A program made the position numbers and the translations under genes. 64,000 nucleotides of DNA, from assembly GCA_944388145.1 (NCBI GenBank), contig CALXHQ010000001.1, forward strand, positions 1 through 64,000, read 5' to 3'. How positions within the stretch are numbered: the first letter of the stretch is position 1; the number at the start of each line of letters is the position of its first letter. Under the pieces are notes generated by a model, which was not told the DNA's origin, did no database searches, and worked only from the letters and a program-made list of their open reading frames with translations. Shown in pieces: positions 9,022-37,245 of this stretch. The stretch is from an uncultured Gemmiger sp. GTDB taxonomy: Bacteria > Bacillota > Clostridia > Oscillospirales > Ruminococcaceae.

Positions 9022-9672
9022 TCAGGACAGCTGCGCGGTCCAGTCCGCCCAATTTTCCAGCACGGTATCTGCCGTGGCCCGTATGTCATCCCAGCACGGG
9101 CGAGTGTAGGCATCCAGCACGCCGATGGTATAGAATCCGGCTGCCTTTGCCGTGCGGATGGCCGTGGGCGAATCTTCAAACACCATGATCTGCGCCGGCC
9201 CGGCACCCAAGCGTTCGGCGGCCCGGAAGTAGACCTCCGGTTCCTCCTTGCCGCGGGGCGTGGCACAGCCCAGCGTGAAGGCAAACCGGTCCAATATGCC
9301 AAAATGGGCCAGCGCGGCATCCACCAGCGGTTTCTCCGTACCGGAGGCAACGCAGAGGGTAACACCCCGAGCACGCATGGCATCCAATGCCTGCACCATC
9401 CCGGGTTTGAGACTGGCCATGGTGGCATAGTCCGCACGGGCTTGCCGACGGATGGCATCTGCCATTTTCGCTGCCGTAACCGGCAGCGAAAACCGCCGCA
9501 CATAGTAGGCGGCAGCCCCTTCCACCGTCATGGTGGCGGTATCGCTGCGTTCCTGCCCCGTGTAGCGGATGCCCCAGGGGGCAAGCACCTGAACAGCCAC
9601 CTGATCCCACATTCCGGTGGAATCCAGCAGTGTGCCGTCCATATCCAGGATCGCATAGGGCAAAAGCTGCAT
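9022..9672 (-). CDS. HAD-superfamily hydrolase, beta-phosphoglucomutase-like
   Basis: A 216-residue HAD phosphatase/phosphomutase. Motif I is DMDGT with the nucleophile Asp10 and Asp12, motif II is CVASGTEKP near residue 110, and motif III/IV is FEDSPTAIRTAKAAGF near 168. A helical cap between motifs I and II places it with the beta-phosphoglucomutase/phosphoglycolate phosphatase subgroup; substrate unknown. The ATG at 9672 was preferred since AGGAG lies 7 bases upstream. The upstream extension to 9729 is rich in arginine and glycine and looks non-coding. Confidence 0.85.
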   Translation of the reverse strand: MQLLPYAILDMDGTLLDSTGMWDQVAVQVLAPWGIRYTGQERSDTATMTVEGAAAYYVRRFSLPVTAAKMADAIRRQARADYATMASLKPGMVQALDAMRARGVTLCVASGTEKPLVDAALAHFGILDRFAFTLGCATPRGKEEPEVYFRAAERLGAGPAQIMVFEDSPTAIRTAKAAGFYTIGVLDAYTRPCWDDIRATADTVLENWADWTAQLS

Positions 9673-9807
9673 CGTTGTCTCCTGTCGGTTGCCGGGGCGG
9701 CTGCCGCCGCGGCGTGATCCGGTGTTCATACACTAACAGCATACCCGTTTTTCCCGGAAAAGGCAAGTGGTAAGCGTGTTTTTGTGGAGACTGGCGGGGA
9801 AACGGTG

Positions 9808-9921
9808 TTAATCCTCCAGCTCCTGCCAGGCTTCCTCCATGGTATCGGCAGAAAAGAGGAATTGGCCGCAGGCATTGTAAACTTCGATATGGCCGCAGAC
9901 ATTTCGAAACTGAACAGACAT
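9808..9921 (-). CDS. Conserved-looking 37-residue small protein of unknown function
   Basis: A short open frame (MSVQFRNVCGHIEVYNACGQ at the start, EEAWQELED at the end) with a good AGGAAAGGCGG ribosome site and its own extended -10 element. The pattern GHIEVY..CG.FLFSADT..EA...LE reads like a compact folded domain, and I recall similar short proteins in related gut Firmicutes, though without function. It has two cysteines and no membrane segment. It lies between the HAD gene and the CmpB-like gene, each on the minus strand, with hypothetical status. Confidence 0.6.
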   Translation of the reverse strand: MSVQFRNVCGHIEVYNACGQFLFSADTMEEAWQELED

Positions 9922-9979
9922 GGGGTAAACCGCCTTTCCTTTGCAGTGTGAAAGCTGCCTGACTTTGGATTGTGCTTTC

Positions 9980-9985
9980 AGTATA
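9980..9985 (-). promoter_or_regulatory. Extended -10 element of the 37-residue gene
   Basis: Minus strand TGCTATACT. No good -35 at 16-18 bases. The transcript would start about 50 bases before the ATG at 9921. Confidence 0.5.
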
Positions 9986-10056
9986 GCAAAGGAGCAGGGT
10001 GTTATTTGGGACTTCAGGCGGCATTCCGCGATAACGCAGTCCCTTAAAGCGGTCTT

Positions 10057-10494
10057 TTAATACTCTGCGGCAAGCAGCGGTACGGTGTGCGGTGCTGCGC
10101 GTATTTTTCGCAGGCAGAACAGCAGCCACAGGCATAAAAGATACCACAAAACCGTATAGCGCGGACAGACAAAGCCGGCAATGTTGCCCCACTCGGCGCG
10201 GTAGTCCCATACGCGCACCCGAAGCGCCACAAGGCAAAGCTGCCCCACGGCCAGTTCCAGCACAGTGATGCCCGCCGCCCCCAGCGCTGCAGCAGAGGGA
10301 AGTGTCAGGTTGGGGCGGTGTTCCAGCCAGACCAGCAGGCAAAAGCAACCGCCCCCGGCAAAGAACATGGTCCAGTGGGTGGCGCCGCGCCAGACCAGTT
10401 CCGCCGCCAAATAGGCGGTTCCCCCCATGGCAAAAACAGAGGCCTTTTCCCAGAGCAGCGCGCCTGGCAGGCGTTTGGCGGGCTGTGTCATCAT
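10057..10494 (-). CDS. CmpB-like putative ABC transporter membrane protein
   Basis: A 145-residue integral membrane protein with about four transmembrane helices. The signature RVWDYRAEWGNIAGFVCPRYTVLWY matches in pattern the putative ABC-transporter type IV (CmpB) family, small membrane proteins of Clostridia with unproven transport function. The start is the ATG at 10494 (MMTQPAKR), preceded by GGAGGGGGAG; the longer frame has no ribosome site. No ATPase gene is adjacent, so a role as a transporter subunit is uncertain. Confidence 0.65.
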   Translation of the reverse strand: MMTQPAKRLPGALLWEKASVFAMGGTAYLAAELVWRGATHWTMFFAGGGCFCLLVWLEHRPNLTLPSAAALGAAGITVLELAVGQLCLVALRVRVWDYRAEWGNIAGFVCPRYTVLWYLLCLWLLFCLRKIRAAPHTVPLLAAEY

Positions 10495-13638: not shown

Positions 13639-13729
13639 GGGCAGATAGATTCCTTATAACACAGCAGGACCGGCTGTCGGGTTGCACAGTGGCCAGCCCC
13701 ACAGGGAGAACATTCGGTATATAAAGAAT

Positions 13730-13735
13730 AGTATA
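13730..13735 (-). promoter_or_regulatory. -10 element of the D-Ala carboxypeptidase gene
   Basis: Minus strand TATACT with a poor TTTTCC at -35 (17-base spacing). The 5' leader would be about 85 bases. Confidence 0.5.
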
Positions 13736-13793
13736 CCAAAAAATACCGCTTTGGAAAAGGTGCAGAAGAGTGGAATTTTGCCGGGCAGCACCA

Positions 13794-15839
13794 TCAATTC
13801 ATGGTGCCGGCAGTGGTGGCAAACAAACGCTCCACCTCATCCGCCAGCAGGCGGTGCTCCGGGGCGGCCAGGCTGGGGTCGGCGGCCAGCAGGGATTTGG
13901 CCTCCTGCTGGGCAACCGTTAGGGTGCGGGTATCCTCCACCAGGTTGGCCACCCGAAGCGTGGGCAGGCCGTGCTGGGCCTCGCCAAAGAAATCGCCGGG
14001 GCCGCGGGTCTCCAGGTCGTATTTTGCCACCGCAAAGCCATCCTGCGTGTGGCAGAGGAAGGAAAGGCGTTTGCGCACGCTCTCGCTCTCGTTGTCTGAG
14101 ATCAGGATACAGCAGGAATCGGCGGAGCCGCGCCCTACCCTGCCCCGCAGCTGGTGCAGGGCTGACAGACCGAACCGCTCGGCGTTCTCGATTACCATGA
14201 CGGTGGCGTTGGGCACGTCCACCCCCACCTCGATGACGGTGGTGGAGACCAGCACATCCAGTTCTCCCGCCTTGAACGCCTGCATGACGGCATCCTTTTC
14301 TTTGGGTTTGAGCTTTCCATGCAAAAGCCCCACCCGGCGGCCGGGCAAAAGCGGACAGGCGACCTTTTCGTAGTAGCTTTTCACCGACTGGATGCCCGCA
14401 TCCAGCTCATTGTCCTCAATGGCCGGGCAGACAATGTAGACCTGATGCCCGGCGGCGATCTGCTTTTCCAAAAAGCCGTACATATCCCGCCGCTTGCGTC
14501 CGGTGATGAACCAGGTTCTGATGGGCTTACGCCCCGGGGGCAGCTCATCCAGCACCGAGATGTCCAGGTCGCCGTAGAGCAGCAGCCCCAGCGTGCGGGG
14601 AATGGGCGTGGCGCTCATCACGAGCAGGTGCGGGCTTTTGGCTTTGCCTGCCAAAATGCCCCGCTGCCGTACCCCGAAGCGGTGCTGCTCGTCCACAATG
14701 GCAAGGCCCAGGTTTTTGAACTGCACCGCATCGGTCAGCACCGCGTGGGTGCCCACCACCAGCCCTGCGCGGCCGTCGGCGATGGCGGAAAGCGCCACCC
14801 GGCGTTCGGCGGCCTTCATGCCCCCCACCAGCAGCGTGACATTGACGCCGAAGGGTTCCAGCCGGTCGGCCAGCGTGGCGGCGTGCTGGCGGGCCAGCAG
14901 CTCGGTGGGGGCCAGCATGGCGCTCTGCCAGCCGTTCTGTGCCGCATGCCAGATGGCCGCGGCGGCCACCAGCGTTTTGCCGCTGCCCACATCGCCCTGC
15001 AGCAGCCGGTTCATGGGGATGCTGCCGCAAAGGTCGCGGCAGATTTCCTCGGTGGCGCGGCGCTGGGCGCCGGTGGGCGCGTAGGGCAGGCTGCGCCAGA
15101 AGGGTGCCAGATCCACCGGATGCATGGGCGCGCCGGTTTTCTGCCGGCCATGCCCCCGCAGAAGGAAAATGCCCAGCTGCAGGATGTATAGCTCCTCAAA
15201 AATCAGGCGACGGCGCGCGGCGGCGGCATCCTGGGGGGATTGGGGCGCATGGATGGCCCGGACCGCCTCGGCCCGGGTGGGCATGCGGTATTTGGCCAGC
15301 AAAAAGGCCGGCAGCGGGTCGGGCAGGCCGGCGGCGGCATCCAGTGCGGCGGCCACCGCCTTGACGATGCGGCTGCTGGGCAGCCCCTCGGTGCCGGGAT
15401 AGACCGGAACCAGCGGTGCGGCGGCCACATCGGCCTCGGTACGGATGCTGGGGTGCAGGATCTCCCGCCGGGTCAGGCTACCGCCCACGCGGCCCTCAAA
15501 ATAATAGCGCTTGCCGATTTCCAGATGCTCCGCCACATAGGGCGCGTTGAACCAGGACAGGGTCAGCGTGCCGGTATCGTCGGCTGCCAGCACCCGGGTG
15601 AGCATCCGCCCGCCCTTGATGCGGCGGCCGGGTTCCTTTTGCAGGACCTCGGCCCGGACGCAGCAGTCGATGTCATAGGGTGCCTCGGCCACGGCGTAAG
15701 GCCTGGTGTAATCCACATAGCGGCGCGGATAGTGCAGGAGCAGGTCCCCCACGGTGCGGATGCCGAGTTTTTCAAACTTTTTGGCAAACGCCGGGCCTAC
15801 CCCCTTGAGATACTGCACGCTGTCGTTCAGGTCCGGCAT
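13794..15839 (-). CDS. recG: ATP-dependent DNA helicase RecG
   Basis: A 681-residue branch-migration helicase acting on stalled replication forks and Holliday junctions. Residues about 60-160 form the OB/wedge domain; the helicase core holds the Walker A GDVGSGKT (near 286), the DEQHRFG box (near 392), VMSATPIPRT (near 420) and QLRGRVGRG (near 575). The start ATG has AAGGAGG 8 bases upstream. Downstream of DUF1835, yloV and asp23 in the same direction; asp23-yloV-recG is a familiar Firmicute order. Confidence 0.97.
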   Translation of the reverse strand: MPDLNDSVQYLKGVGPAFAKKFEKLGIRTVGDLLLHYPRRYVDYTRPYAVAEAPYDIDCCVRAEVLQKEPGRRIKGGRMLTRVLAADDTGTLTLSWFNAPYVAEHLEIGKRYYFEGRVGGSLTRREILHPSIRTEADVAAAPLVPVYPGTEGLPSSRIVKAVAAALDAAAGLPDPLPAFLLAKYRMPTRAEAVRAIHAPQSPQDAAAARRRLIFEELYILQLGIFLLRGHGRQKTGAPMHPVDLAPFWRSLPYAPTGAQRRATEEICRDLCGSIPMNRLLQGDVGSGKTLVAAAAIWHAAQNGWQSAMLAPTELLARQHAATLADRLEPFGVNVTLLVGGMKAAERRVALSAIADGRAGLVVGTHAVLTDAVQFKNLGLAIVDEQHRFGVRQRGILAGKAKSPHLLVMSATPIPRTLGLLLYGDLDISVLDELPPGRKPIRTWFITGRKRRDMYGFLEKQIAAGHQVYIVCPAIEDNELDAGIQSVKSYYEKVACPLLPGRRVGLLHGKLKPKEKDAVMQAFKAGELDVLVSTTVIEVGVDVPNATVMVIENAERFGLSALHQLRGRVGRGSADSCCILISDNESESVRKRLSFLCHTQDGFAVAKYDLETRGPGDFFGEAQHGLPTLRVANLVEDTRTLTVAQQEAKSLLAADPSLAAPEHRLLADEVERLFATTAGTMN

Positions 15840-19458: not shown

Positions 19459-20781
19459 TCAGTCCTCGGGCGTGTCATCCTTGGGGATGATGATGTTCAG
19501 CACAAACGCAACCAGGAAGGAAACCACCAACGAACTGCCAAAGATGTCCTGGAACAGCTCGGGGGTGTGCTGCAGAATCTGCGGAGCAGACTCAATGCCC
19601 AGGCCCAAGGCCAGCGCAATGCCCACAATCATCCGGTTGCGGTAGTTCATGGGCTGCTCTTTCAGCAGCTGGATGCCGGACATGGTGATGGCGGCAAACA
19701 CAGTGACGGTGGCACCGCCCAGAACCGGCTGGGGAATGGTGGCCATTAAACCGCTGAACTTCGGGAAAACACCTGCCAGCAGCATGATAACGCCCACAAT
19801 GGTGAACACGCGGCGGGACACCACTTTGGTGGTGCAGATCAGGCCGACGTTCTGGCTGTACGGATCGGTGGGCAAACCGCCGATGCAGGCGCCGATCATG
19901 CCGCAGATGCCCTGGCCCTTGATGGCACCGCCCAGTTCCTGATCGGTGGCTTCACGGCCAAAGCCGCCCATGGCGGTGGAAGAAACATCACCAATGGTCT
20001 GCACCGCCTGAACCATGTACATCAGGATCATCATGATGATGGCAGAGGGATGGAATTCAAGGCCGAAGTGGAACGGCACCGGCACCGAGAACCAGGCGGC
20101 ACTGGTAAAGCCCGTGAAGTCCACAATACCGCCCATAATCAGCGCCACCACGTAGCCGACCACAATACCGATCAGCATACCGGAGGCTTTGAGCAGACCC
20201 TTGCCGAAGAAGTTGCAGGCCAGGGTGATGATCAGCGTCAGGATAGCCAGCAGCCAGAAGCGGGGAGAGCCAAAATCCTCGCCGGCGCCACTGCCGCCCC
20301 CGATGTAGTTGATAGCCGTGTTGTAGAGCGACAGGCCAATACTGATGACCACCGTGCCGCTGACAATGGGCGGAAAGAAGGGGCGCAGCTTGCCGATGAA
20401 CATACCGATGAAGATGGATACAAACGCCGCCGCCAGCTGGCTGCCGAAGATCGCGGCGATGCCATATTCTTTGCCGATGATGGTCAAAATCGGCATATAG
20501 GCGAAGGCCACGCCCATGACGTTGGGCATCCGCATGCCGAAGCCGAACACCGGGAACAGCTGCAGCAGAGTGGTGATGCCGCCGATGATCATGGCCGCCT
20601 GGGTCAGCATGATCTGGTCATCCGCAGAAAGACCGCAGATGCCTGCGATCAGCATAGGCGGTGTGATGTTGCCGATCAGCATGGCCAGCACATGCTGCAA
20701 CGCCTGCGGCAGCGCCACACCGAAAGACGGTTTGCCGTCGAATTTCAGCAATTCGGCGTTGGTGTTGGTGGAATTTGACAT
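19459..20781 (-). CDS. NCS2-family nucleobase (purine/uracil) permease
   Basis: A 440-residue nucleobase:cation symporter with 12-14 membrane helices. LPQALQHVLAML at about residue 25 and the nucleobase-transporter signature QNVGLICTTK near 290 place it in the xanthine/uric acid/uracil family. The start is the ATG at 20781 with GAGGAAAGGG upstream. A promoter and a terminator frame it as a single-gene unit. Close linkage to a molybdenum hydroxylase suggests a purine substrate, but uracil cannot be excluded. Confidence 0.88.
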   Translation of the reverse strand: MSNSTNTNAELLKFDGKPSFGVALPQALQHVLAMLIGNITPPMLIAGICGLSADDQIMLTQAAMIIGGITTLLQLFPVFGFGMRMPNVMGVAFAYMPILTIIGKEYGIAAIFGSQLAAAFVSIFIGMFIGKLRPFFPPIVSGTVVISIGLSLYNTAINYIGGGSGAGEDFGSPRFWLLAILTLIITLACNFFGKGLLKASGMLIGIVVGYVVALIMGGIVDFTGFTSAAWFSVPVPFHFGLEFHPSAIIMMILMYMVQAVQTIGDVSSTAMGGFGREATDQELGGAIKGQGICGMIGACIGGLPTDPYSQNVGLICTTKVVSRRVFTIVGVIMLLAGVFPKFSGLMATIPQPVLGGATVTVFAAITMSGIQLLKEQPMNYRNRMIVGIALALGLGIESAPQILQHTPELFQDIFGSSLVVSFLVAFVLNIIIPKDDTPED

Positions 20782-20942: not shown

Positions 20943-22094
20943 TTATTCACATTTTAATTCAGCGCACAGGGCTTTCAGCTGCTGCGGCGTATCCACATCC
21001 ACCAGCTCCCTTGCCTCCTGCACCGGAAGGCAGCGCACTCGCTCGGGGAATTGACGGATCACCGCACCGCCCCCCTGCCCCTGCGGCAGCGACTGCAGTG
21101 CAGGGAAAGCCCAGGCCGGGAACAGCACCGGCGCCCCCGCCCTGCCCTGCCATGCAGCGCGCCAGACAGCATCCGGTTCCGCCACGGCTGCAAGCGTCAG
21201 CCCTGCCACAGTCTGCCAGCGCAGCAGCGGCTGGTCGCCAGGGCAAAACAGACAGCCGGTGAGCGGGCCGTCTGTTGGCGCCCGCCACCTTTGATCCGGT
21301 GCCAGCAGCGCCGACAGCCCCAGGCGCACCGTATCGCTGCGGCAGGGCTGGCTGTGCAGCAGCACAGGAACATTTTGACGTCTGCAAAGCTCGGCCACAT
21401 CCCGGTGGCGGGTAACCGCAATACGCCGGGCAAACACCCCCGCAGTGGCATCCAGGGTTCTCTGGATCAACGGAGCGCCGCTAAACTCTGCCATCAGCTT
21501 GTTGCCGCCGAACCGTTTGCCCAAACCGGACGCCATGATGACGCACCCCACCCTGCCAAACGGTGCGTCCAAATCCAGGCAGAACGCATCCCTGCGGTGG
21601 CAGAGCTCCTGCAAAAAGGGCAGCGGCTGCTTGCGCACCACCACAAGCAGCCGTTTTTGTTCCATCAGATCCCGCAATGCTGCGCAGTAGGGCGGACAGT
21701 CCGTCTCCAGAAAACCAACCTCGTCAATGGCAACCCACTCCCCCGGCGCCTGGCGGCAGCGCCGCAGGGCGCTGACCCCAAAGCTGCGGAATGCCTCCGA
21801 GACGGGGCGCATACGGGGTTCCCCCTCGGGCAGGTCAGGGGCAAACCGGCCCACCTGCACCGTGCGGCCGGTGGGATTCTCCCGCAGGAAAACACCGCAG
21901 CCGGGGGCGGCCCAGGAGGTCAGCCCGGGAACCGGTCCCTCCGCCGGCATGGCGGACAGCAGCTTGGCCAGCAGTGTGGTCTTGCCGGCATTGCGCCTGC
22001 CGGTAAGGATCAGGTGCCGCTTACCGCTCGCCCGGAAAGAATTCCAGATACAGTCTGCGGTTAGCCGCCACGCAGGCGTCGCGATACTGTTCAT
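20943..22094 (-). CDS. Fusion of a THEP1-like NTPase and a MocA-like cytidylyltransferase
   Basis: A 383-residue two-domain protein. Residues about 25-175 look like a THEP1/NTPase_1 P-loop enzyme: LTGRRNAGKTTLL (Walker A) and IDEVGFLE (Walker B). Residues about 182-383 form a nucleotidyltransferase of the MobA/MocA type: GCVIMASGLGKRFGGNKLM, then CPGDQPLL. MocA attaches CMP to molybdopterin to give the cytosine-dinucleotide cofactor of xanthine-dehydrogenase-type enzymes. The start ATG overlaps the ModE-like gene by 74 bases and has GGAG about 12 bases upstream; no later in-frame ATG or GTG exists before the P-loop. The role of the NTPase half is not known. Confidence 0.8.
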   Translation of the reverse strand: MNSIATPAWRLTADCIWNSFRASGKRHLILTGRRNAGKTTLLAKLLSAMPAEGPVPGLTSWAAPGCGVFLRENPTGRTVQVGRFAPDLPEGEPRMRPVSEAFRSFGVSALRRCRQAPGEWVAIDEVGFLETDCPPYCAALRDLMEQKRLLVVVRKQPLPFLQELCHRRDAFCLDLDAPFGRVGCVIMASGLGKRFGGNKLMAEFSGAPLIQRTLDATAGVFARRIAVTRHRDVAELCRRQNVPVLLHSQPCRSDTVRLGLSALLAPDQRWRAPTDGPLTGCLFCPGDQPLLRWQTVAGLTLAAVAEPDAVWRAAWQGRAGAPVLFPAWAFPALQSLPQGQGGGAVIRQFPERVRCLPVQEARELVDVDTPQQLKALCAELKCE

Positions 22095-22362
22095 AGCGCT
22101 GCAGCCACTCCTTTCCCTGTGGTGTCAGGTTGCTGCCGCCGCCGTCCCTTCCGCCGGCTGTGCGGGTGGTCAGCGCAAACCCCAGCGCGTTCTCGGCATT
22201 GTTCAGCAGGCGCAGCGCCTTGGAGTATGCCATTCCCATCGCCTGGGCGGCAGCATGCAGCGAACCGGTCTGCTCTATCCCGCGCAGCAGCCGGCAGGGA
22301 CCCTCCCCAAAAAATTTGTTGTCCCGGTCATCGTAGAAGATGATCCTGGTGATTGCTTTCAT
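22021..22362 (-). CDS. ModE-like winged-helix DNA-binding protein (single domain)
   Basis: A 113-residue protein (115 from a TTG at 22368, equally possible; GAGG lies 6 bases before that TTG). It matches the DNA-binding half of E. coli ModE: GPCRLLRGIEQTGSLHAAAQ, YSKALRLLNNAE, and the wing TAGGRDGGGSNLTPQG. The MopI/TOBE molybdate-binding half is absent, so effector sensing is unclear. It is cotranscribed with the MocA fusion and the ABC importer, and a ModE-type operator overlaps the promoter of this operon. Confidence 0.85.
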   Translation of the reverse strand: MKAITRIIFYDDRDNKFFGEGPCRLLRGIEQTGSLHAAAQAMGMAYSKALRLLNNAENALGFALTTRTAGGRDGGGSNLTPQGKEWLQRYEQYRDACVAANRRLYLEFFPGER

Positions 22363-22392: not shown

Positions 22393-23196
22393 CTAATCCG
22401 GCTCCTTCAGCAGCACAATCTGGCGTTGACCGTTGCGGCCGGTACAGTATTGCAGGCTGACCGGGCCATAAATGGCAGCCAGTTCCCGCTCGATCCGGGG
22501 CAGGGCGTCTTTGCCCGGGGTCAGGCACGCCTGTACCCAACCGTCGGACAGGACCAGCAGCTGATCGCAGCAGTTCAATGCCAGCAGCGGGTCGTGCAGC
22601 GCTACCAGTGCACTGCCATTGCCCTTTCCTGCCCAGGTTCGGAGCAGATCCAATATCCGGTAGCGATGGCGGAAGTCCAGCGCGCTCTCCGGTTCGTCCA
22701 GCAAAAGCAGCTGGCTGTCGGCCGCCAGTGTGCGCGCCAGAATGCACAGCTGTTTTTGCCCCTCGCTGAGCTGAAGATAGTTGTCCTTTTCCCGGTGGGC
22801 CAGGCCGGTGAGGGCAAGCGCCCGCCGGGCCTTTTCCCGCATGGCCGGGGTGGGGTGTTCCAGCAACCCCAGCTGCGGGTTGAATCCCATCAGGACCACC
22901 TCCAGCACAGAAAGGTCAATGGAGATCCCGCTGCGCTGGGGAATATAGCCGCAGCGGCGGGCCAGCTGACGGGGTGTAAGCTGTTCCAGGCAGGTTTCCT
23001 GCAGCGTACAGCGGCCCGCATGGGGCAGAATTCCGCAGATGGCTTTGAGCAGCGTGGTCTTGCCGCAGCCGTTGGCGCCAAGGACCCCTGCCAGACAGCC
23101 CTGTTCCAGCGTGAAGGAGATGTCCCGCAATACCGGTTGCCGCCCGTACCCGGCCGACAGATGGATGGCTGCAAAAAAGGGATGCGCTTCATTCAT
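22393..23196 (-). CDS. ABC transporter ATPase, FecE/MolC type
   Basis: A 267-residue ATPase: Walker A GANGCGKTT near residue 40, signature LSEGQ near 140, Walker B LLLLDEPESALD near 160. It groups with ATPases of the iron-siderophore/cobalamin/molybdate class II importers. The ATG at 23196 overlaps the permease stop (ATGAATGA), implying translational coupling. The longer frame to 23217 was rejected because it lies wholly inside the permease gene. Its partners are the permease and lipoprotein encoded directly upstream. Confidence 0.9.
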   Translation of the reverse strand: MNEAHPFFAAIHLSAGYGRQPVLRDISFTLEQGCLAGVLGANGCGKTTLLKAICGILPHAGRCTLQETCLEQLTPRQLARRCGYIPQRSGISIDLSVLEVVLMGFNPQLGLLEHPTPAMREKARRALALTGLAHREKDNYLQLSEGQKQLCILARTLAADSQLLLLDEPESALDFRHRYRILDLLRTWAGKGNGSALVALHDPLLALNCCDQLLVLSDGWVQACLTPGKDALPRIERELAAIYGPVSLQYCTGRNGQRQIVLLKEPD

Positions 23197-24202
23197 AGCC
23201 TTTTCTTCCTCGCACAATCAGAACGATCAAAAAGGGCGCGCCCAACAGACTGGTGAAGATACTGACCGGCAGCTCAGTGGCGGCAACGCTGCGTGCCAGG
23301 ATATCCGCCCCGGTGAGCAGCACCCCACCCAGAATGCCGCCCAGCAGCATGGTGCCGGCATCGTTGCGTCGGGTAAGCAGCCGGGCCCCGTGAGGGGCAA
23401 GCAGCCCCACAAAACTGATCAGCCCCGTCAGGCTGACCACCGCAGAGACTGCCAGGGTTGCCACCAACAGCACTGCCAGACGCAGCTTGCCCACCGAGAC
23501 CCCCAGCATACGGGCCTCCCCCTCCTCAGCGGAGAGAAGCACCACCTGCCGGTGCAGCAGAAACAGCACGGCCACACAGACAGCGCAGAGCAGCAGATTG
23601 CCACCGATGGAATACCCGCTGATACCGTTCAGACTGCCCATGATCCAGTACTCGATGGACGCCAGCTCCCGTTCCGGGTCGGCGGTGAGCTTAAGACACA
23701 TCAGCGCCGTTTGCGCCAGCGAATGGACTGCAATGCCCGCCAGCACGATGGTGGCCTGTTTGCCCGACTGGTCCAGTGCCGAGAGCGCCAGTGCCAGGCC
23801 CATTGCCGCCAGCGCCCCCGCAAAGGAGGCCGCCGTAACCGCCGCCGCACCGGATAAAAACAATATTCCCGCCGCGGCGCCCGCACTGGCCCCGGAGGTG
23901 ACGCCGATCACATCCGGCGAGGCCAGCGGATTGCGGAACACAGTCTGATAGACAAAGCCCGCCGCTCCCAGCGCAAAGCCGCCAATCAGCCCCACCGCGG
24001 TCCGGCTGAGCCGCAGCGTGTAAAAGACCCGCAGCTGCATTCCGTCGCCGCCGGCAAGCCCCTGCCAGGTGAGGGGGTACTTTCCGGTGAACAGGCTGAC
24101 GACAGCCAAAACGATCAGCAGGGCCATCCCTGCGGTGCACAACAGGGCCGTCTTATGCGATCTCACTGTAAGTAAAGCCATAGAAGGTCTGATAGAATTC
24201 AT
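23189..24202 (-). CDS. ABC transporter permease, FecCD/BtuC/MolB type
   Basis: A 337-residue permease with about ten membrane helices. Features include LRLSRTAVGLIGGFALGAAG near residue 50, NPLASPDVIGVTSGASAGA near 88 and the C-terminal LVAPHGAR-like LLAPHGARLL near 270. This fold imports metal chelates, cobalamin or, in Haemophilus MolBC, molybdate/tungstate. The ATG at 24202 (GAGGTG, 5 bases spacing) overlaps the binding-protein gene by 50 bases. Genetic context with ModE and MocA favours molybdate or tungstate over iron. Confidence 0.9.
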   Translation of the reverse strand: MNSIRPSMALLTVRSHKTALLCTAGMALLIVLAVVSLFTGKYPLTWQGLAGGDGMQLRVFYTLRLSRTAVGLIGGFALGAAGFVYQTVFRNPLASPDVIGVTSGASAGAAAGILFLSGAAAVTAASFAGALAAMGLALALSALDQSGKQATIVLAGIAVHSLAQTALMCLKLTADPERELASIEYWIMGSLNGISGYSIGGNLLLCAVCVAVLFLLHRQVVLLSAEEGEARMLGVSVGKLRLAVLLVATLAVSAVVSLTGLISFVGLLAPHGARLLTRRNDAGTMLLGGILGGVLLTGADILARSVAATELPVSIFTSLLGAPFLIVLIVRGRKGYE

Positions 24203-25250
24203 CAATCACCTCGGCAGTCTCGTCCGCCGGGCACTGCTCCGGGTGGAGTATGCCCGCCAGCCAGACGGCGCCGAGGATACCGCCCGGCACCGGGCTGTCC
24301 CATGCCTCGGCATTGCCGGGAATCTGATAGACATGGCCGGTTTCGATGGCCGTGCAGCCCTCCAAGTTTGGGTCGGCCAGCACATCGGCCACCGTGTAGG
24401 TGGCGTCGGACGCCAGAATAATATACTCGGGGTCCCAGGCGAGCACCTGTTCATAGCTGGTCTGTACCCAGTAGGTATCGGTGATTTCCGCCGCCACGTT
24501 GATACCGCCTGCCATAGTGATCAAATCGGATTGGTACATAGCGGCCCCGGCGGTGTTGAGAAAGTCGGAATTGCCGCCCAAATAAACCTTGGGCTTTGCC
24601 ACACCGGCAAGCACATCGGCCAGGCGGTCAGCCTGCGCGTCGGAAAACGCGATCAGGTCAGCGGCTCGGGCTTGGGTGTTGGTGGCCACGCCCAGCAGGG
24701 TGAGCGCCTCCTCAAGCAGCTGCTGATTTTCCGGATTGACATACAACACTGTCAAGCCCAGCGCCTCCAGACTTTCGGCGGAATCCAGCAGCTTGAGGGG
24801 CAGCACCACCAGGTCGGGCTTCAATGCGGCACAGGCCTCCAGGTCAATTTCCTTGGCAGTGCCGATGCTGGCCAGCTCTAAAAATTCCGGTGCGCTGAGG
24901 GCATAAATCGGGCGCTTTTCGGGCTGGTTTTCCACCCCCACCACACGGTCCTGCAGTCCCAGGGCAATGAGCATGCTGGTGGAAATGTAGTAGCTGCTGA
25001 CAAGGCGCCGCGGTTCGCTGCTGACAGTTACCTTCCTGCCGGCCTGGTCAGTCACGATGACGGGGTAGGTGGTTGCAGCGGCAGTCTCCGGCGTGAGAGG
25101 GTCATCTGCCAGCAGGAGCGGCTGTTCCTGCTGACTGGAGGATGCGGGCGCACCGGCGGTCGCCGTGCCTGCAGCCGGGCTGCCGCAGGCCGCCAGAGAC
25201 AGAACCACTGCCCCCGCCAACAGCAGAGAAAGGAGACGGTTTATATGCAT
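24153..25250 (-). CDS. ABC transporter substrate-binding lipoprotein (FecB/MolA type)
   Basis: A 365-residue lipoprotein: signal peptide with lipobox SLAAC (Cys22), a Ser/Ala/Gln-rich linker, then a helical-backbone binding fold with VTDQAGRKVTV near residue 67 and LVVLPLKLLD near 165. The C-terminus reads EFYQTFYGFTYSEIA, common to this class. It delivers substrate to the FecCD-type permease. First gene of the operon importer-modE-like-mocA; AAGGAAG lies 7 bases before the ATG. Ligand unproven; molybdate or tungstate is inferred from context. Confidence 0.88.
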   Translation of the reverse strand: MHINRLLSLLLAGAVVLSLAACGSPAAGTATAGAPASSSQQEQPLLLADDPLTPETAAATTYPVIVTDQAGRKVTVSSEPRRLVSSYYISTSMLIALGLQDRVVGVENQPEKRPIYALSAPEFLELASIGTAKEIDLEACAALKPDLVVLPLKLLDSAESLEALGLTVLYVNPENQQLLEEALTLLGVATNTQARAADLIAFSDAQADRLADVLAGVAKPKVYLGGNSDFLNTAGAAMYQSDLITMAGGINVAAEITDTYWVQTSYEQVLAWDPEYIILASDATYTVADVLADPNLEGCTAIETGHVYQIPGNAEAWDSPVPGGILGAVWLAGILHPEQCPADETAEVIDEFYQTFYGFTYSEIA

Positions 25251-25281: not shown

Positions 25282-25305
25282 CGTTATATTTTCAAAACTA
25301 TAGCG
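25282..25305. promoter_or_regulatory. ModE-type operator between the importer and hydroxylase operons
   Basis: CGTTATA (25282-25288), ten bases, TATAGCG (25299-25305); the minus strand reads CGCTATA-N10-TATAACG. This has the half-sites and spacing of E. coli ModE sites (CGnTATA-N10-TATAACG). It covers about -4 to +20 of the minus promoter and is centred about 65 bases upstream of the plus-strand start. Confidence 0.7.
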
Positions 25306-25307
25306 AA

Positions 25308-25336
25308 ATTATAACAAGCCATCTAGGCAAAAGCAA
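25308..25336 (-). promoter_or_regulatory. Promoter of the ABC importer/modE-like/mocA operon
   Basis: Minus strand TTGCTT (25336-25331), 17 bases, TATAAT (25313-25308). It overlaps the divergent promoter. Confidence 0.75.
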
Positions 25337-25352
25337 GTCATACTGATATAAT
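25324..25352 (+). promoter_or_regulatory. Promoter of the molybdenum hydroxylase operon
   Basis: TAGGCA (25324-25329), 17 bases, TATAAT (25347-25352). The weak -35 fits a promoter that needs an activator. Confidence 0.7.
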
Positions 25353-25483: not shown

Positions 25484-26278
25484 ATGATCACAATACAAAA
25501 CTATGTGCAGGCAGAAAGCCTGGACGAAGCCTGGCAGCTGAACCAGAAGCGCAACGCCCGGGTGCTGGGCGGTATGCTCTGGCTGAAGATGGGCCAAAAC
25601 CCGGTGGGGACTGCCATCGACCTGTGTAAGCTGGGTCTGGATACCATCGAGGAGGAGGAAAGTAGCTTTTCTATCGGTGCGATGGTCACACTGCGCGCTT
25701 TGGAAAAGCATCCCAGCTTGAACGCCTGGACCCACGGCATGGCAGCCCGGGCCCTGCAGCCGATTGTTGGGGTGCAGTTCCGCAACATGGCCACCGTTGG
25801 CGGCAGCTTGTGGGGACGGTTTGGTTTTTCTGATGTGCTGACGCTGTTCCTGGCGCTGGACACCAAGGTGGAACTGCACAAAAGGGGGCTTGTCCCGCTG
25901 GAACAGTTTACTGCCATGGATTATGACAATGACATTTTGGTACGCGCCGTGGTGCGAAAAGTCCCCTGCCGCCTTTCCTACCAGGCCATGCGCATCCAGC
26001 GCACGGATCTGCCGGTACTGACCTGCGCCGTTTGCCAGCTTGAAGGCGAAACCCGTGCGGTGATCGGCGCACGCCCGGGCAAAGCCCTGGTCATTCGGGA
26101 CGATACCGGCCTTTTGCAGGGCGGTATCACGGCGGAAAGTGCTGCCGCCTTTGCAGACTATGTGACCGGGAAGGTGCCCATGGGGTCCAATTCCCGGGGC
26201 AGCGCGGCTTACCGCAGCCACCTCTGCCGGGTGCTGACCCGGCGTGCCACACTGGAACTGGGAGGGCAAGCACAGTGA
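25484..26278 (+). CDS. Molybdenum hydroxylase FAD-binding subunit (XdhB/CoxM type)
   Basis: A 264-residue subunit that passes electrons between the iron-sulfur centres and FAD. The N-terminal VLGGMLWLKMG (near residue 27) and MATVGGSLWGRFGFSDVLTL (near 102) are the FAD-binding motifs of clostridial XdhB-like proteins. The ATG at 25484 has AAGGA 7 bases upstream; the frame-extended start at 25403 lies in the leader. Its stop overlaps the GTG start of the iron-sulfur subunit. Substrate of the complex is discussed under the molybdenum subunit. Confidence 0.9.
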   Translation: MITIQNYVQAESLDEAWQLNQKRNARVLGGMLWLKMGQNPVGTAIDLCKLGLDTIEEEESSFSIGAMVTLRALEKHPSLNAWTHGMAARALQPIVGVQFRNMATVGGSLWGRFGFSDVLTLFLALDTKVELHKRGLVPLEQFTAMDYDNDILVRAVVRKVPCRLSYQAMRIQRTDLPVLTCAVCQLEGETRAVIGARPGKALVIRDDTGLLQGGITAESAAAFADYVTGKVPMGSNSRGSAAYRSHLCRVLTRRATLELGGQAQ

Positions 26279-26754
26279 TCGAGATGAACCTGACCTTAAA
26301 CGGCAAACCGGTGGCGGCCCGGGTGGACCCCGACCTGCTGCTGATCGACTTTTTGCGGGATCACGGCTGCCTGAGTGTCAAACGCGGATGTGAGACATCC
26401 AACTGCGGCCTGTGCACCGTACTGATGGACGGCACACCAATTTTGTCCTGCTCCATGCTGGCCGTGCGCGCCGCCGGGCATACCATCCAGACGCTGGAGG
26501 GGCTGCAGGAGGAGGCTGCCGACTTTGTCGGTTTTATCGCCGACCAGGGTGCCGACCAGTGCGGCTTCTGCAACCCCGGCTTTGTGATGAACACCATCGC
26601 TCTGCTGCGGGAGAACCCCGACCCCACCGACGACGAGATCCGCGGCTTTTTGGCGGGGAATCTTTGCCGCTGTTCCGGTTATGAAGGTCAGCTGCGGGGT
26701 ATTCGCAGCTATCTGGACAGCCGCGGGAAAGGAGGCACAAGCCATGGCGAATGA
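26275..26754 (+). CDS. Molybdenum hydroxylase [2Fe-2S] subunit (XdhC/CoxS type)
   Basis: A 159-residue subunit with two [2Fe-2S] clusters. The plant-ferredoxin-type cluster uses GCETSNCGLCTVLMDG and the later Cys of SCSML; the helical-domain cluster uses QCGFCNPGF (near residue 97) and CRCSGY (near 132). Starts with GTG overlapping the TGA of the preceding gene, with GGAGGG 9 bases upstream. Its 3' end overlaps the start of the molybdenum subunit by 11 bases, showing tight coupling. Confidence 0.94.
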   Translation: MIEMNLTLNGKPVAARVDPDLLLIDFLRDHGCLSVKRGCETSNCGLCTVLMDGTPILSCSMLAVRAAGHTIQTLEGLQEEAADFVGFIADQGADQCGFCNPGFVMNTIALLRENPDPTDDEIRGFLAGNLCRCSGYEGQLRGIRSYLDSRGKGGTSHGE

Positions 26755-29062
26755 GCCGAACAACCGGTACAGCGACTATAAGGAGATCCACAAGCCGGTG
26801 CGCAAAAAGGATGCCATGCAGCTGCTTTTGGGCAAGCCGGTTTACACCGACGATATCACCCCAAAGGATGCGCTGGTGGTCAAGATCCTGCGTTCTCCCC
26901 ATGCCAATGCCATTGTCCGTGAAATCAACACCGCTTTGGCTTTGAAGGTGCCCGGCGTTGTGGCCGTGTATACCTGGCAGGATGTGCCCCGGAACCGCTT
27001 TACCATCGCCGGGCAAACCTACCCGGAGCCTTCCCCCTACGACCGGCTGATTTTGGACCGCCATGTGCGGTTTGCCGGCGACGCGGTGGCCATCATCGCC
27101 GCCGAGACCGAGAAGGCCGCCCTGAAAGCAATGAAGCTCATCAAGGTGGCATACGAAGTTCTGCCTGCGGTGCTGGATTTTCATACTGCCAAGGATAACC
27201 CCGTGCTGGTCCACCCGGAGGAGGACTGGGTTCCCCCCTGCCCCGTGGGCGGGGACAATCGCCGCAACCTGGTGGCCAGCGACACGAACAGCGACGGCGA
27301 CGTGGAGGCCGTGCTGGCCGGCTGCGATATCGTGCTGGACCGTACCTACCACACCAAGGCCTACAACCAGGCCATGATGGAGACCTTTCGCACATATGCG
27401 GAGCTGGACCGGTACGGACGGCTGCACATCATCTCCTCCACCCAGATCGTCTTTCATGTGCGGCGCATCCTGTCCCGGGCGTTGGGCATTCCCATGAGCA
27501 AGATCCGCGTGGAAAAGCCCCGCATTGGCGGCGGCTTCGGCGCCAAGCAGACCGCCGTGTGTGAAGTCTATCCCGCCTTCGTGACCTGGATGACCGGACG
27601 CCCCTCCAAGCTGATCTATACCCGGGAGGAGTCCCAGATCGCCGGTTCACCGCGGCACGAGATGCAGGTGCGGGTGCGGCTGGGCGCCGACCGGGAAGGG
27701 CATATCCGCGCCATCGATATGTACACCCTGTCCAACTCCGGCGCTTATGGCGAGCATGGGCCCACCACAGTCGGCCTGTCCGGCCACAAGTCCATCCCCA
27801 TGTACACCGGCAACCTGGAGGCTTACCGCTTTTGCTACGATGTGGTCTACACCAACCACCAGGCAGCAGGTGCCTACCGCGGCTACGGCGCTACCCAGGG
27901 GATCTTTGCATTGGAGACCACCGTCAGCGAGCTGGCAGAGCGGCTGGGCATCGACCCCACCGTCATCCGCGACCGCAACATGGTCCGGGAGGGCATGAAG
28001 ATGTCCTCCTACTACAACGAGATGGCCAATGCCTGTGCGTTGGACCGCTGTATGGAGCACTGCCGCCGGATCTTCCACTGGGACGAAAAATATCCGGTGC
28101 GGGACATGGGCAACGGCAAGGTCCGCGCCGCCGGCGTGGCTATGGCGATGCAGGGTTCCTGCATTTCCAACGTGGATGTGGGTTCTGCCACCGTCAAGCT
28201 GAGCGAGGACGGCACCTATCTGCTGATCATCGGTGCGGCGGACATGGGCACCGGGTGTGATACCATTTTGGCCCAGATGGCCGCCGAATGTCTGGACTGC
28301 AGCGTGGATGACATTGCCGTCTTTGGTGCGGACACCGATGTATCCCCCTATGATTCCGGCTCCTACGCTTCCTCTACCACCTACGTCACCGGCAAGGCGG
28401 TGGAAAAAGCCTGCGCGGAATTGAAGGAGAAGATTTGCCAGATCGCCGCCGGCATGCTCCACTGCGCCCCGGATGCGGTGGTATTTGAGGGCCGCCGGGT
28501 CCGCCGCATCGACACCGACGAGAGCGTCACCCTGCGAGACATCGGCTACAAAACCCAGGTGTTCAACAGTACCGCCGCCGAGGCCACCGCCAGCCACTCC
28601 TCCCCGGTTTCGCCGCCGCCTTACATGGTGGGCATGGTGGAGATCGAACTGGACAGGGAGACCGGCCTGGTAACCATCCTGAACTATATGGCCGTGGTGG
28701 ACTGCGGTATCCCCATCAATCCGGCACTGGCCCGCATCCAAACCGAGGGCGGCATCGTCCAGGGCATTGGCCACACCCTGATGGAAAATGTCCAGTATGA
28801 TGCCAACGGCAAGCCGGTGGAGCGTTCCTTCTTGCAGTATAAAATCCCCACCCGGCTGGACATGGGGCATCTGCGGGTGGAATTTGAGCACAGCTTTGAG
28901 CCCACCGGCCCGTTTGGCGCCAAGTCCATCGGCGAGATCGTCATCAATACCCCGGCCCCGGCCATCGCCCATGCCATCTACCGGGCCACCGGCGTCTGGC
29001 ACAGGGAGATTCCCATCACACCGGAACAGATTGCCCTGGCTGTGCCGGAGGATCAAGGCTGA
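26744..29062 (+). CDS. Molybdenum hydroxylase catalytic subunit (xanthine dehydrogenase type)
   Basis: A 772-residue catalytic subunit of the xanthine dehydrogenase family, which hydroxylates purines or other N-heterocycles with water as oxygen donor. Moco-binding motifs GGGFGAKQ (near residue 262) and AYRGYGATQG (near 377) and the catalytic glutamate of GAKSIGE (near 728) are intact, so it should be active. ATG 26744 follows GGAGG by 8 bases. Nearby MocA implies a cytosine-dinucleotide cofactor. Linkage to an NCS2 permease favours a purine substrate, but relatives oxidise nicotinate and other heterocycles. Confidence 0.92.
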   Translation: MANEPNNRYSDYKEIHKPVRKKDAMQLLLGKPVYTDDITPKDALVVKILRSPHANAIVREINTALALKVPGVVAVYTWQDVPRNRFTIAGQTYPEPSPYDRLILDRHVRFAGDAVAIIAAETEKAALKAMKLIKVAYEVLPAVLDFHTAKDNPVLVHPEEDWVPPCPVGGDNRRNLVASDTNSDGDVEAVLAGCDIVLDRTYHTKAYNQAMMETFRTYAELDRYGRLHIISSTQIVFHVRRILSRALGIPMSKIRVEKPRIGGGFGAKQTAVCEVYPAFVTWMTGRPSKLIYTREESQIAGSPRHEMQVRVRLGADREGHIRAIDMYTLSNSGAYGEHGPTTVGLSGHKSIPMYTGNLEAYRFCYDVVYTNHQAAGAYRGYGATQGIFALETTVSELAERLGIDPTVIRDRNMVREGMKMSSYYNEMANACALDRCMEHCRRIFHWDEKYPVRDMGNGKVRAAGVAMAMQGSCISNVDVGSATVKLSEDGTYLLIIGAADMGTGCDTILAQMAAECLDCSVDDIAVFGADTDVSPYDSGSYASSTTYVTGKAVEKACAELKEKICQIAAGMLHCAPDAVVFEGRRVRRIDTDESVTLRDIGYKTQVFNSTAAEATASHSSPVSPPPYMVGMVEIELDRETGLVTILNYMAVVDCGIPINPALARIQTEGGIVQGIGHTLMENVQYDANGKPVERSFLQYKIPTRLDMGHLRVEFEHSFEPTGPFGAKSIGEIVINTPAPAIAHAIYRATGVWHREIPITPEQIALAVPEDQG

Positions 29063-35523: not shown

Positions 35524-37245
35524 TCAGAACAGGCTGTACAGCTGCGCCAGCGGCAGCTTTTCCGCCGGCTTGCAGGTGACGGGTTCTCCGTCCACGCGCA
35601 CCTCGTAAGTCTCCGGGTTGACGGTAATCTCGGGGGTGGCGTCGTTGAACTTCATGTCCTTCTTGCCGATGTTGCGGCAGCCGGAAACGGGAACCACGGT
35701 CTTTTCCAGGCCGTACTTTTCCTTGACGTGTTCTTCCATGGCCGCCTTGGACACAAAGGTCAGGCAGGCGGCGTACTTGGCCTTGCCATGGGCGGCGAAC
35801 ATCGGCTTGTACATGACCGGCTCGCAGGTGGGGATGGACGCATTGGCGTCACCCATCTTGGAAGCGATGATCATGCCGCCCTTGATGATGATGTCGGGGC
35901 GGATGCCGAAGAAAGCGGGGTTCCACAGCACCAGGTCGGCAAACTTGCCAGTCTCGACCGAGCCGACATACTTGCTGACACCGTGGGTGATGGCTGGGTT
36001 GATGGTGTACTTGGCCACATAGCGCTTGATACGGAAGTTGTCGTTGCCGTGGCCCTCGTCCTCGGGCAGAGGGCCGCGCTCATCGCGCATCTTGCTGGCA
36101 GTCTGCCAGGTGCGGGTGATGACCTCGCCCACACGTCCCATGGCCTGGGAGTCGGAACTCATCATGCTGAACACGCCCATATCCTGCAGTACGTCCTCGG
36201 CTGCAATGGTCTCGGGGCGGATACGGGAATCGGCAAAGGCGACATCCTCCGGGATGCGCTTGTCCAGATGGTGGCAGACCATCAGCATATCCAGATGCTC
36301 ATCCAGCGTGTTGACGGTGTAGGGCATCGTGGGGTTGGTGGAGGAAGGCAGGACGTTGGGGGCCGACGCCGCGCGGATGATGTCGGGGGCATGGCCGCCG
36401 CCGGCGCCCTCGGTGTGATAGGTGTGGATGGTGCGGCCGGCGATGGCATTCAGCGTGTCCTCCACGCAGCCGCCCTCGTTCAGGGTGTCAGTATGGATGG
36501 CGACCTGAATGTCGTAGTCATCCGCCACCTTCAGGCAGTGGTCGATGGCGGCGGGGGTGCTGCCCCAGTCCTCGTGTAGCTTCAGGCCCATGGCGCCGGC
36601 CTTGACCTGTTCGATCAGGGCTTTCTCGTCTGAGCAGTTGCCCTTGCCCAGCAGGCCGATGTTCATGGGGTACTCCTCCACGGCCTTGAGCATCATCTCC
36701 ATGTTCCAGGGGCCGGGGGTGCAGGTGGTGGCATTGGTGCCATCCGCAGGGCCGGTGCCGCCGCCGATCATGGTGGTGATGCCGCTGTACAGCGCGCAGT
36801 CCACCTGCTGCGGCGAGATGAAATGGATGTGGGTGTCCAGACCGCCTGCGGTGACGATCAGGCCCTCGCCGGCCAGCGCCTCGGTGGAAGCGCCCACCGT
36901 CATGCCGGGGGTGACGCCGTCCATGATGGAAGGGTTGCCGGCCTTGCCGATGCCGGCAATCTTACCGTCCTTGATGCCGATGTCGGCCTTATAGATGCCG
37001 GTATAGTCGAGGATCAGGCAGTTGGTGATGACCAGATCCAGGTCGCCGTCCGAGCTGCAGGTGGTAACCGACTGGCCCATGCCGTCGCGCAGCGTCTTGC
37101 CGCCGCCGAACTTGGACTCGTCGCCGTAGGTGGTGTAATCCTTCTCCACCTCCAGGATCAGGGAGGTGTCCCCCAGACGGACCTTGTCGCCCGTGGTGGG
37201 GCCGTACATCATCGCGTACTTTTCGCCGGAAATTTGAATGCTCAT
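35524..37245 (-). CDS. ureC: Urease alpha subunit
   Basis: The 573-residue catalytic subunit hydrolysing urea to ammonia and carbamate. Nickel ligands are visible: HIHF (about residues 136-138), the carbamylated lysine in GLKLHEDWG near 220, HTDTLNE near 275, and aspartate in the [12 protein letters not shown] region near 365. The flap is [21 protein letters not shown] near 322, whose histidine assists catalysis. Overlaps ureB by 4 bases. No change in key residues was seen. Confidence 0.98.

Follow-up and report, generated by a model that had tools for sequence, protein, structure and literature searches.

An operator set between two back-to-back promoters in the genome of an uncultured Gemmiger sp. 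probably switches the cell between molybdenum import and synthesis of a molybdenum enzyme. We consider it rather likely that this site is used by a ModE-type repressor without a molybdate-binding domain, which works with a MocA-like protein and reads the state of the molybdenum cofactor. A second site at a selenium-cofactor operon, the tie between the helix-turn-helix (HTH) and MocA proteins and the genome-wide absence of the Mop domain are additions to what a first-pass annotation had made of the window, the whole stretch of 64,000 nucleotides analysed here.

A ModE-type palindrome between importer and hydroxylase genes

The palindrome (CGTTATATTTTCAAAACTATAGCG) is 24 bp long, has the arms CGTTATA-TTTTCAAAAC-TATAGCG and was found at 25282-25305 exactly as the first-pass annotation had given it (CGTTATA-N10-TATAGCG). 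Leftward from it run, in this order, genes for a binding protein, a FecCD-type permease, an ATPase, the HTH protein, a P-loop NTPase-MocA-like protein and a xanthine permease-like protein (possibly the last gene of the operon); rightward lie the three subunits of a molybdenum hydroxylase (Table 1). The reading frames of the HTH and P-loop-MocA proteins share 74 nt (22021-22094), and in many relatives the MocA match begins 67 or 70 nt ahead of the HTH stop, an overlap that suggests translational coupling. The best PDB match of the importer's binding protein is 4hn9 (iron-complex binding, E 1.1e-104) and the second best 3psa (HI_1472, E 2.4e-25). A ModA-type importer was rejected, as the genome, with one MoCoBD_1 protein, one match to the window HTH and one selenium-cofactor operon, has no ModA match. 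Elsewhere in the window (36795-37089, + strand) there is an Rfam match to 5_ureB_sRNA (119.8 bits, gathering threshold 40) beside genes at 32-34 kb that we take to be urease genes; this match may merely be conserved urease coding sequence.

Table 1. Features of the window around the putative operator
Feature	Position	Strand	Basis
Xanthine/uracil permease-like gene, downstream	19459..20778	-	domain matches
P-loop NTPase-MocA-like protein	20943..22094	-	domain matches; TIGR03310 98.1 bits (cut-off 186.45)
113-aa ModE-type HTH protein without Mop domain	22021..22362	-	HTH_1; TIGR00637; profile matches 2ijl, 1b9m
Importer ATPase	22393..23217	-	domain match
FecCD-type permease	23189..24205	-	domain match
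Substrate-binding protein of importer (Peripla_BP_2)	24153..25250	-	domain match; PDB 4hn9, then HI_1472 3psa
Putative ModE-type operator	25282..25305		sole exact genome match; kept in orthologous regions
Predicted importer promoter, TTGCTT-17-TATAAT, extended -10	25308..25336	-	sequence; same layout in relatives
Predicted hydroxylase promoter, TAGGCA-17-TATAAT, extended -10, interlocked with importer promoter	25324..25352	+	sequence
Hydroxylase FAD subunit	25484..26278	+	domain match
Hydroxylase [2Fe-2S] subunit	26275..26754	+	domain match
Hydroxylase molybdenum subunit	26744..29062	+	genome's only MoCoBD_1 match

Relative to the predicted importer transcript the operator spans -4 to +19, in line with the earlier suggestion that it covers the start of the importer operon. 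Its centre falls at -65.5 from the predicted start of the hydroxylase transcript, whose sigma-70-like promoter combines a weak -35 (TAGGCA, 25324-25329) with a TATAAT box (25347-25352); a centre near -65 and a weak -35 had likewise been read in the first-pass annotation.

A pattern scan with CGNTATA-N10-TATANCG returned a single exact match in the window, which is also the single one in the 2.73-Mb genome, and none for the reversed control. When one mismatch was allowed the genome gave three matches and the reversed control also three, so that the exact match alone stands out. With two mismatches the window gave 2 matches against 0.37 expected, a number reached by 5 of 100 shuffles. The second of these, at 13715-13738 (CGGTATATAAAGAATAGTATACCA), one mismatch off the ModE-type pattern, is flanked by two genes in which no molybdenum link is seen (the downstream one presumably resembles D-alanyl-D-alanine carboxypeptidase) and is probably due to chance. 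The window has no match to the molybdenum-cofactor riboswitch at the gathering threshold.

Conservation of the operator in relatives

Conservation of this operator emerges only from a comparison of orthologous regions with a refined motif. The exact E. coli-type pattern occurs in 29 of 197 family genomes and its reversed control in 33 (the latter counted by hand); as a family-wide test it was therefore at chance level and was replaced by a motif drawn from seven orthologous regions. Among the 34 loci first examined, all six relatives sharing the divergent layout (6/6) carry a palindrome at the equivalent position, and a matrix was built from these six sites and that of the window. Beyond the sites it was trained on, the matrix also detects sites ahead of importer genes in L067, L070 and L076. 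The refined motif is approximately CGTTRTAGTTTNNAAACTAYAACG, with the half-site CGTT(G/A)TAGTTTT in 64 distinct contexts; in most relatives the arms take the variant form CGTTRTA-N10-TAYAACG, whereas those of the window fit CGnTATA-N10-TATAnCG exactly. The derived pattern CGTTRTANTTTNNAAANTAYAACG, with up to two mismatches, is found in 48 of 396 family genomes, as against 13 for the reversed control (again counted by hand). The surroundings of its matches were read in 20 regions in addition to the loci already examined, and the matches in L152 and L153 appear, from the neighbouring genes, to be due to chance.

Of 211 loci confirmed in a GTDB scan, for which 17 aligned HTH proteins served as query, 80 were kept. 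Conservation was then scored, with a matrix threshold of 20, on 81 loci from all sources that have both a good hydroxylase FAD match and an HTH. The site reaches the threshold in 58 of 59 regions between FAD and importer genes (the exception, L198, scores 16.3), although several of these 59 loci are of the same or nearly the same sequence and many are kin, so that they do not count as independent events. This is the outcome, for the refined motif, of the search for the spaced palindrome in related genomes that the first-pass annotation had proposed. When the six loci used for training and their two duplicates are removed, 50 of 51 such regions still reach the threshold, and any of 20 permuted matrices does so in only 2 of the 81 loci. 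Where the FAD gene faces another kind of neighbour the operator is present in 4/4 regions, and in the loci without a divergent neighbour in 0/4.

Regions between FAD and HTH genes are more mixed, with 6 of 14 reaching 20 and two more at 17.7 and 19.0. The other six (L176, L177, L183, L184, L188 and L193) have no recognisable operator, with HTH and MocA present. By eye, these six loci, two of them recorded as Candidatus Faecousia, keep promoter boxes at the interlocked positions.

Geometry of the two promoters

Promoter geometry was compared across 54 distinct contexts with facing FAD and importer genes (the window included), start sites being predicted and promoters chosen by score. Counted from the predicted start of the importer transcript, the first position of the operator is -6 to -3 in 50 of the 54; counted from that of the hydroxylase transcript, the operator centre is at -64.5 to -66.5 in 43. 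The promoters are interlocked: in 39/54 the hydroxylase -10 starts 16 bp away from the nearer end of the importer -35 (25331 to 25347 in the window). The -35 of the importer scores higher than that of the hydroxylase in 40/54 and equally in 9/54. These counts include outliers that may be mis-assigned promoters (such as L139, L140, L202, L225, L226, L233) and leave uncorrected one context, L200, which was tallied in the wrong orientation (its site is a perfect palindrome) and by eye fits the common layout. The spacing of operator and importer is thus stricter than that of operator and hydroxylase; the operator is tied first to the importer start. Two promoters on shared DNA could hardly both hold polymerase.

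A first alternative is that a molybdate-responsive ModE represses uptake and activates the hydroxylase directly, by contact with RNA polymerase from about -65. The type and position of the operator agree with this, and the centre found in most contexts would suit contact activation; the reading nevertheless seems unlikely. The fixed distance to the hydroxylase promoter follows automatically from the operator-importer spacing and the interlock, and the operator is displaced away from both promoters, by 13 bp in L062 and by 3 bp in L185 and L221, with the interlock unchanged at 16 bp. Since the operator is tied first to the start that would be repressed, repression combined with relief of occlusion is favoured over contact activation. 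The Mop domain (TIGR00638), moreover, was not found in the protein itself or in any of the 16 genomes searched, that of the window included (five controls, E. coli and four others, were positive). This also speaks against a separate Mop protein as sensor in 16/16 genomes and renders an E. coli-like, molybdate-sensing ModE unlikely.

The first-pass annotation had one site doing two jobs, repression of the importer and activation of the hydroxylase. The placement for importer repression and the conserved distance to the hydroxylase promoter speak for that view; its activation part is less certain, as with so tight an interlock a block on one promoter may simply release the other. Repression of the importer by the putative operator is well supported by the anatomy of the site and its conservation; the hydroxylase promoter, in turn, may be relieved of occlusion rather than activated by contact.

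The putative regulator and its probable MocA partner

The 113-aa protein (22362-22021) has matches to HTH domains only, in keeping with the earlier remark that the regulator encoded in the operon lacks the molybdate-binding domain. It matches TIGR00637 below the cut-off (E 1.4e-16, 60.3 bits, cut-off 98.5), and the best PDB matches of its HTH profile are 2ijl (5.8e-16) and ModE 1b9m (1.3e-9). The neighbouring protein covers nearly the whole TIGR03310 model, also below the cut-off.

The tie between the two proteins is close in relatives. Among the 80 GTDB loci, which were selected by similarity to the window HTH subfamily, 79 have the HTH either as an in-frame fusion with MocA (10 loci) or followed by MocA within 1.5 kb (66 loci where the two adjoin or overlap, 3 where they stand farther apart); the contig of L165 terminates within MocA. 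In the 34 more varied loci of the family a MocA match near the HTH is absent from 19. In ten HTH-MocA fusions of relatives the nucleotidyltransferase motifs show little or no variation. More distant HTH homologues show other arrangements: the HTH stands behind a MocA-like domain in L087, L089, L092, L094 and L095, and a P-loop NTPase_1 domain is fused ahead of a ModE-type HTH in L077, L079 and L078 (under the Pfam cut-off in the last). MocA would on this pattern be the signal-bearing partner of the HTH, although its adjacency could reflect a shared operon function instead of sensing.

A ligand-free autorepressor, by which the HTH protein would hold expression of the genes for importer, MocA and selenium step constant with no sensing at all, accords with a short HTH without a ligand domain encoded inside the very operon to be repressed. 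It is nonetheless improbable, as the HTH is fused repeatedly to MocA, either ahead of it or behind it, and to P-loop NTPases as well, which suggests a partner that bears a signal.

The palindrome might also belong to another regulator unrelated to the ModE-like gene, the motif being not wholly E. coli-like. This is very improbable: the outer arms fit the E. coli consensus given in the relevant part of PMC545781, and the motif co-occurs with the HTH. Of the 197 genomes sampled, 16 have a close HTH homologue and 13 of these contain the motif, against 12 of the remaining 181, the homologue cut-off having been chosen after the list was viewed; with the seven training genomes removed the figures are 6/9 and 12/181 (Fisher p 2e-5). 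Two genomes with close HTH homologues (G140, G134) have no match at two mismatches, G134 having a weaker one behind the HTH gene, and matches away from known target genes in G025 and G137 may be due to chance. Similar palindromes lie just 5' of more distant ModE-like genes at L083 9825, L085 10220, L088 10403 and L082 5254 (the last two low-scoring), which suggests autoregulation there; those of L083 and L085 also argue against an unrelated regulator. That the palindrome itself is a chance occurrence is hardly credible, for all that the exact E. coli-type pattern is no commoner over 197 genomes than expected by chance, because it is conserved in orthologous regions, with a constant geometry and a refined motif well above its reversed control.

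A second site at the selenium-cofactor operon

The refined pattern with up to two mismatches occurs at two places in the genome, the window operator and a selenium-cofactor operon. The second site (G000:C11:18964-18987) lies 8 bp behind a TATAAT box, over the predicted operon start, upstream of genes for a Se/S carrier, csd, YedF, SelD, YqeB and YqeC/XdhC. SelD, YedF and YqeB (G000:C11:22090-22869) score above their cut-offs and the YqeC/XdhC domains are present; the genome thus has all of selD, yqeB and yqeC, the trait of selenium-dependent molybdenum hydroxylases. The window hydroxylase, as sole MoCoBD_1 protein of the genome, is the candidate for carrying labile selenium.

The operator is placed likewise at the selenium genes of L143, L147, L094 and L156, and in L265 and L266 a variant site begins 96 nt before the aligned YqeC start, followed by YqeB. 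In L186, L201, L204 and L229 the selenium operon is divergent from the hydroxylase, with a single common operator, and an HTH-MocA fusion gene comes next after it, while in L231 the selenium genes come after HTH-MocA. No good operator site was seen at the selenium genes of L267, L268 and L269. L094 also carries, about 3.6 kb upstream of its selenium operon (operator at 13850-13873), a MocA-HTH fusion gene with the reverse domain order (9263-10264). Position, together with the same arrangement in relatives, supports placing the selenium-cofactor operon under the same putative operator. As yqeB was found in 10 of 31 genomes tested and many operator-bearing genomes lack the selenium trait, the signal would be molybdenum or its cofactor and not selenium.

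Proposed mechanism and its significance

In the mechanism that we propose, the bound repressor would cover the start of the importer-HTH-MocA transcript and turn transcription off, and the same repressor would act at the predicted start of the selenium-cofactor operon. With the stronger importer promoter blocked, the interlocked hydroxylase promoter would be freed or activated. The signal would most likely be the state of the molybdenum cofactor, conveyed through MocA, and not free molybdate: when the cofactor is scarce the importer and the cofactor machinery would be made, and when it is sufficient, the apoenzyme. More generally, and as a tentative suggestion, such loci may represent a transcription factor that has a cofactor-finishing enzyme as its sensor, a Mop-less ModE-type HTH that forms a single polypeptide with MocA (whichever domain comes first) or is encoded with it in overlapping genes and that senses the amount of finished cofactor passing through MocA, with one operator and interlocked promoters toggling between import and cofactor building, the selenium step included, and apoenzyme synthesis.

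In 2004 the mode of sensing of HTH-only ModE proteins was termed unclear, in the part of PMC545781 that concerns them, and the locus offers a testable answer. It also offers a candidate regulator for selenium-dependent hydroxylases, for which the available portions of the literature found name no ModE-type operator. If correct, the mechanism would indicate when a xanthine-dehydrogenase-like enzyme is produced by Gemmiger, Faecalibacterium and Lachnospiraceae relatives of the gut, with possible consequences for the breakdown of purines in that habitat.

Comparison with known systems

The E. coli ModE operator has the consensus ATCGNTATATA-N6-TATATANCGAT in the pertinent section of PMC545781. 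The system described here resembles what is available on E. coli ModE in its HTH homology (below the TIGR00637 cut-off), in the outer arms CGnTATA-N10-TATAnCG and in a site that covers the point where an uptake operon starts. It differs in lacking Mop domains, in the inner operator sequence (GTTT..AAAC) and the R at position 5, in the type of importer, in the tie to MocA and in the inclusion of a selenium-cofactor operon in the regulon.

The HTH-only ModE of Desulfovibrio, like the 135-aa chain 2ijl, is a ModE-type HTH without molybdate-binding domains, as far as the accessible descriptions go. Its predicted site (CGGTCACG-N14-CGTGACCG) differs from the window operator, its sensing is termed unclear and the corresponding part of the account does not mention a link to MocA (PMC545781). 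A vestigial ModE regulon is reported, in outline, for Geobacter (PMC2700814). The accessible parts of further literature (including PMC11980592, PMC5322559, PMC2276186, PMC11448449 and PMC6147048, subscription papers falling largely outside this scope) contain neither a ModE-type operator at selenium-cofactor genes nor an HTH-MocA fusion.

In E. faecalis, ModE EF2572 lies beside a cluster of SelD, MobA-related, XdhC and hydroxylase genes (PMC2432076), so that, from the part of that account at hand, a ModE-type gene adjoins selenium-cofactor and hydroxylase genes, as in the system described here; the same part describes no operator, regulon or HTH-MocA fusion. The importer itself resembles HI1470-HI1472 of Haemophilus in its FecCD-type permease and in a binding protein for which HI_1472 is the second-best PDB match. 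We take HI1470-HI1472 to be the MolBCA importer; unlike it, the importer of the window is linked to an HTH protein and MocA, and its molybdenum substrate is predicted.
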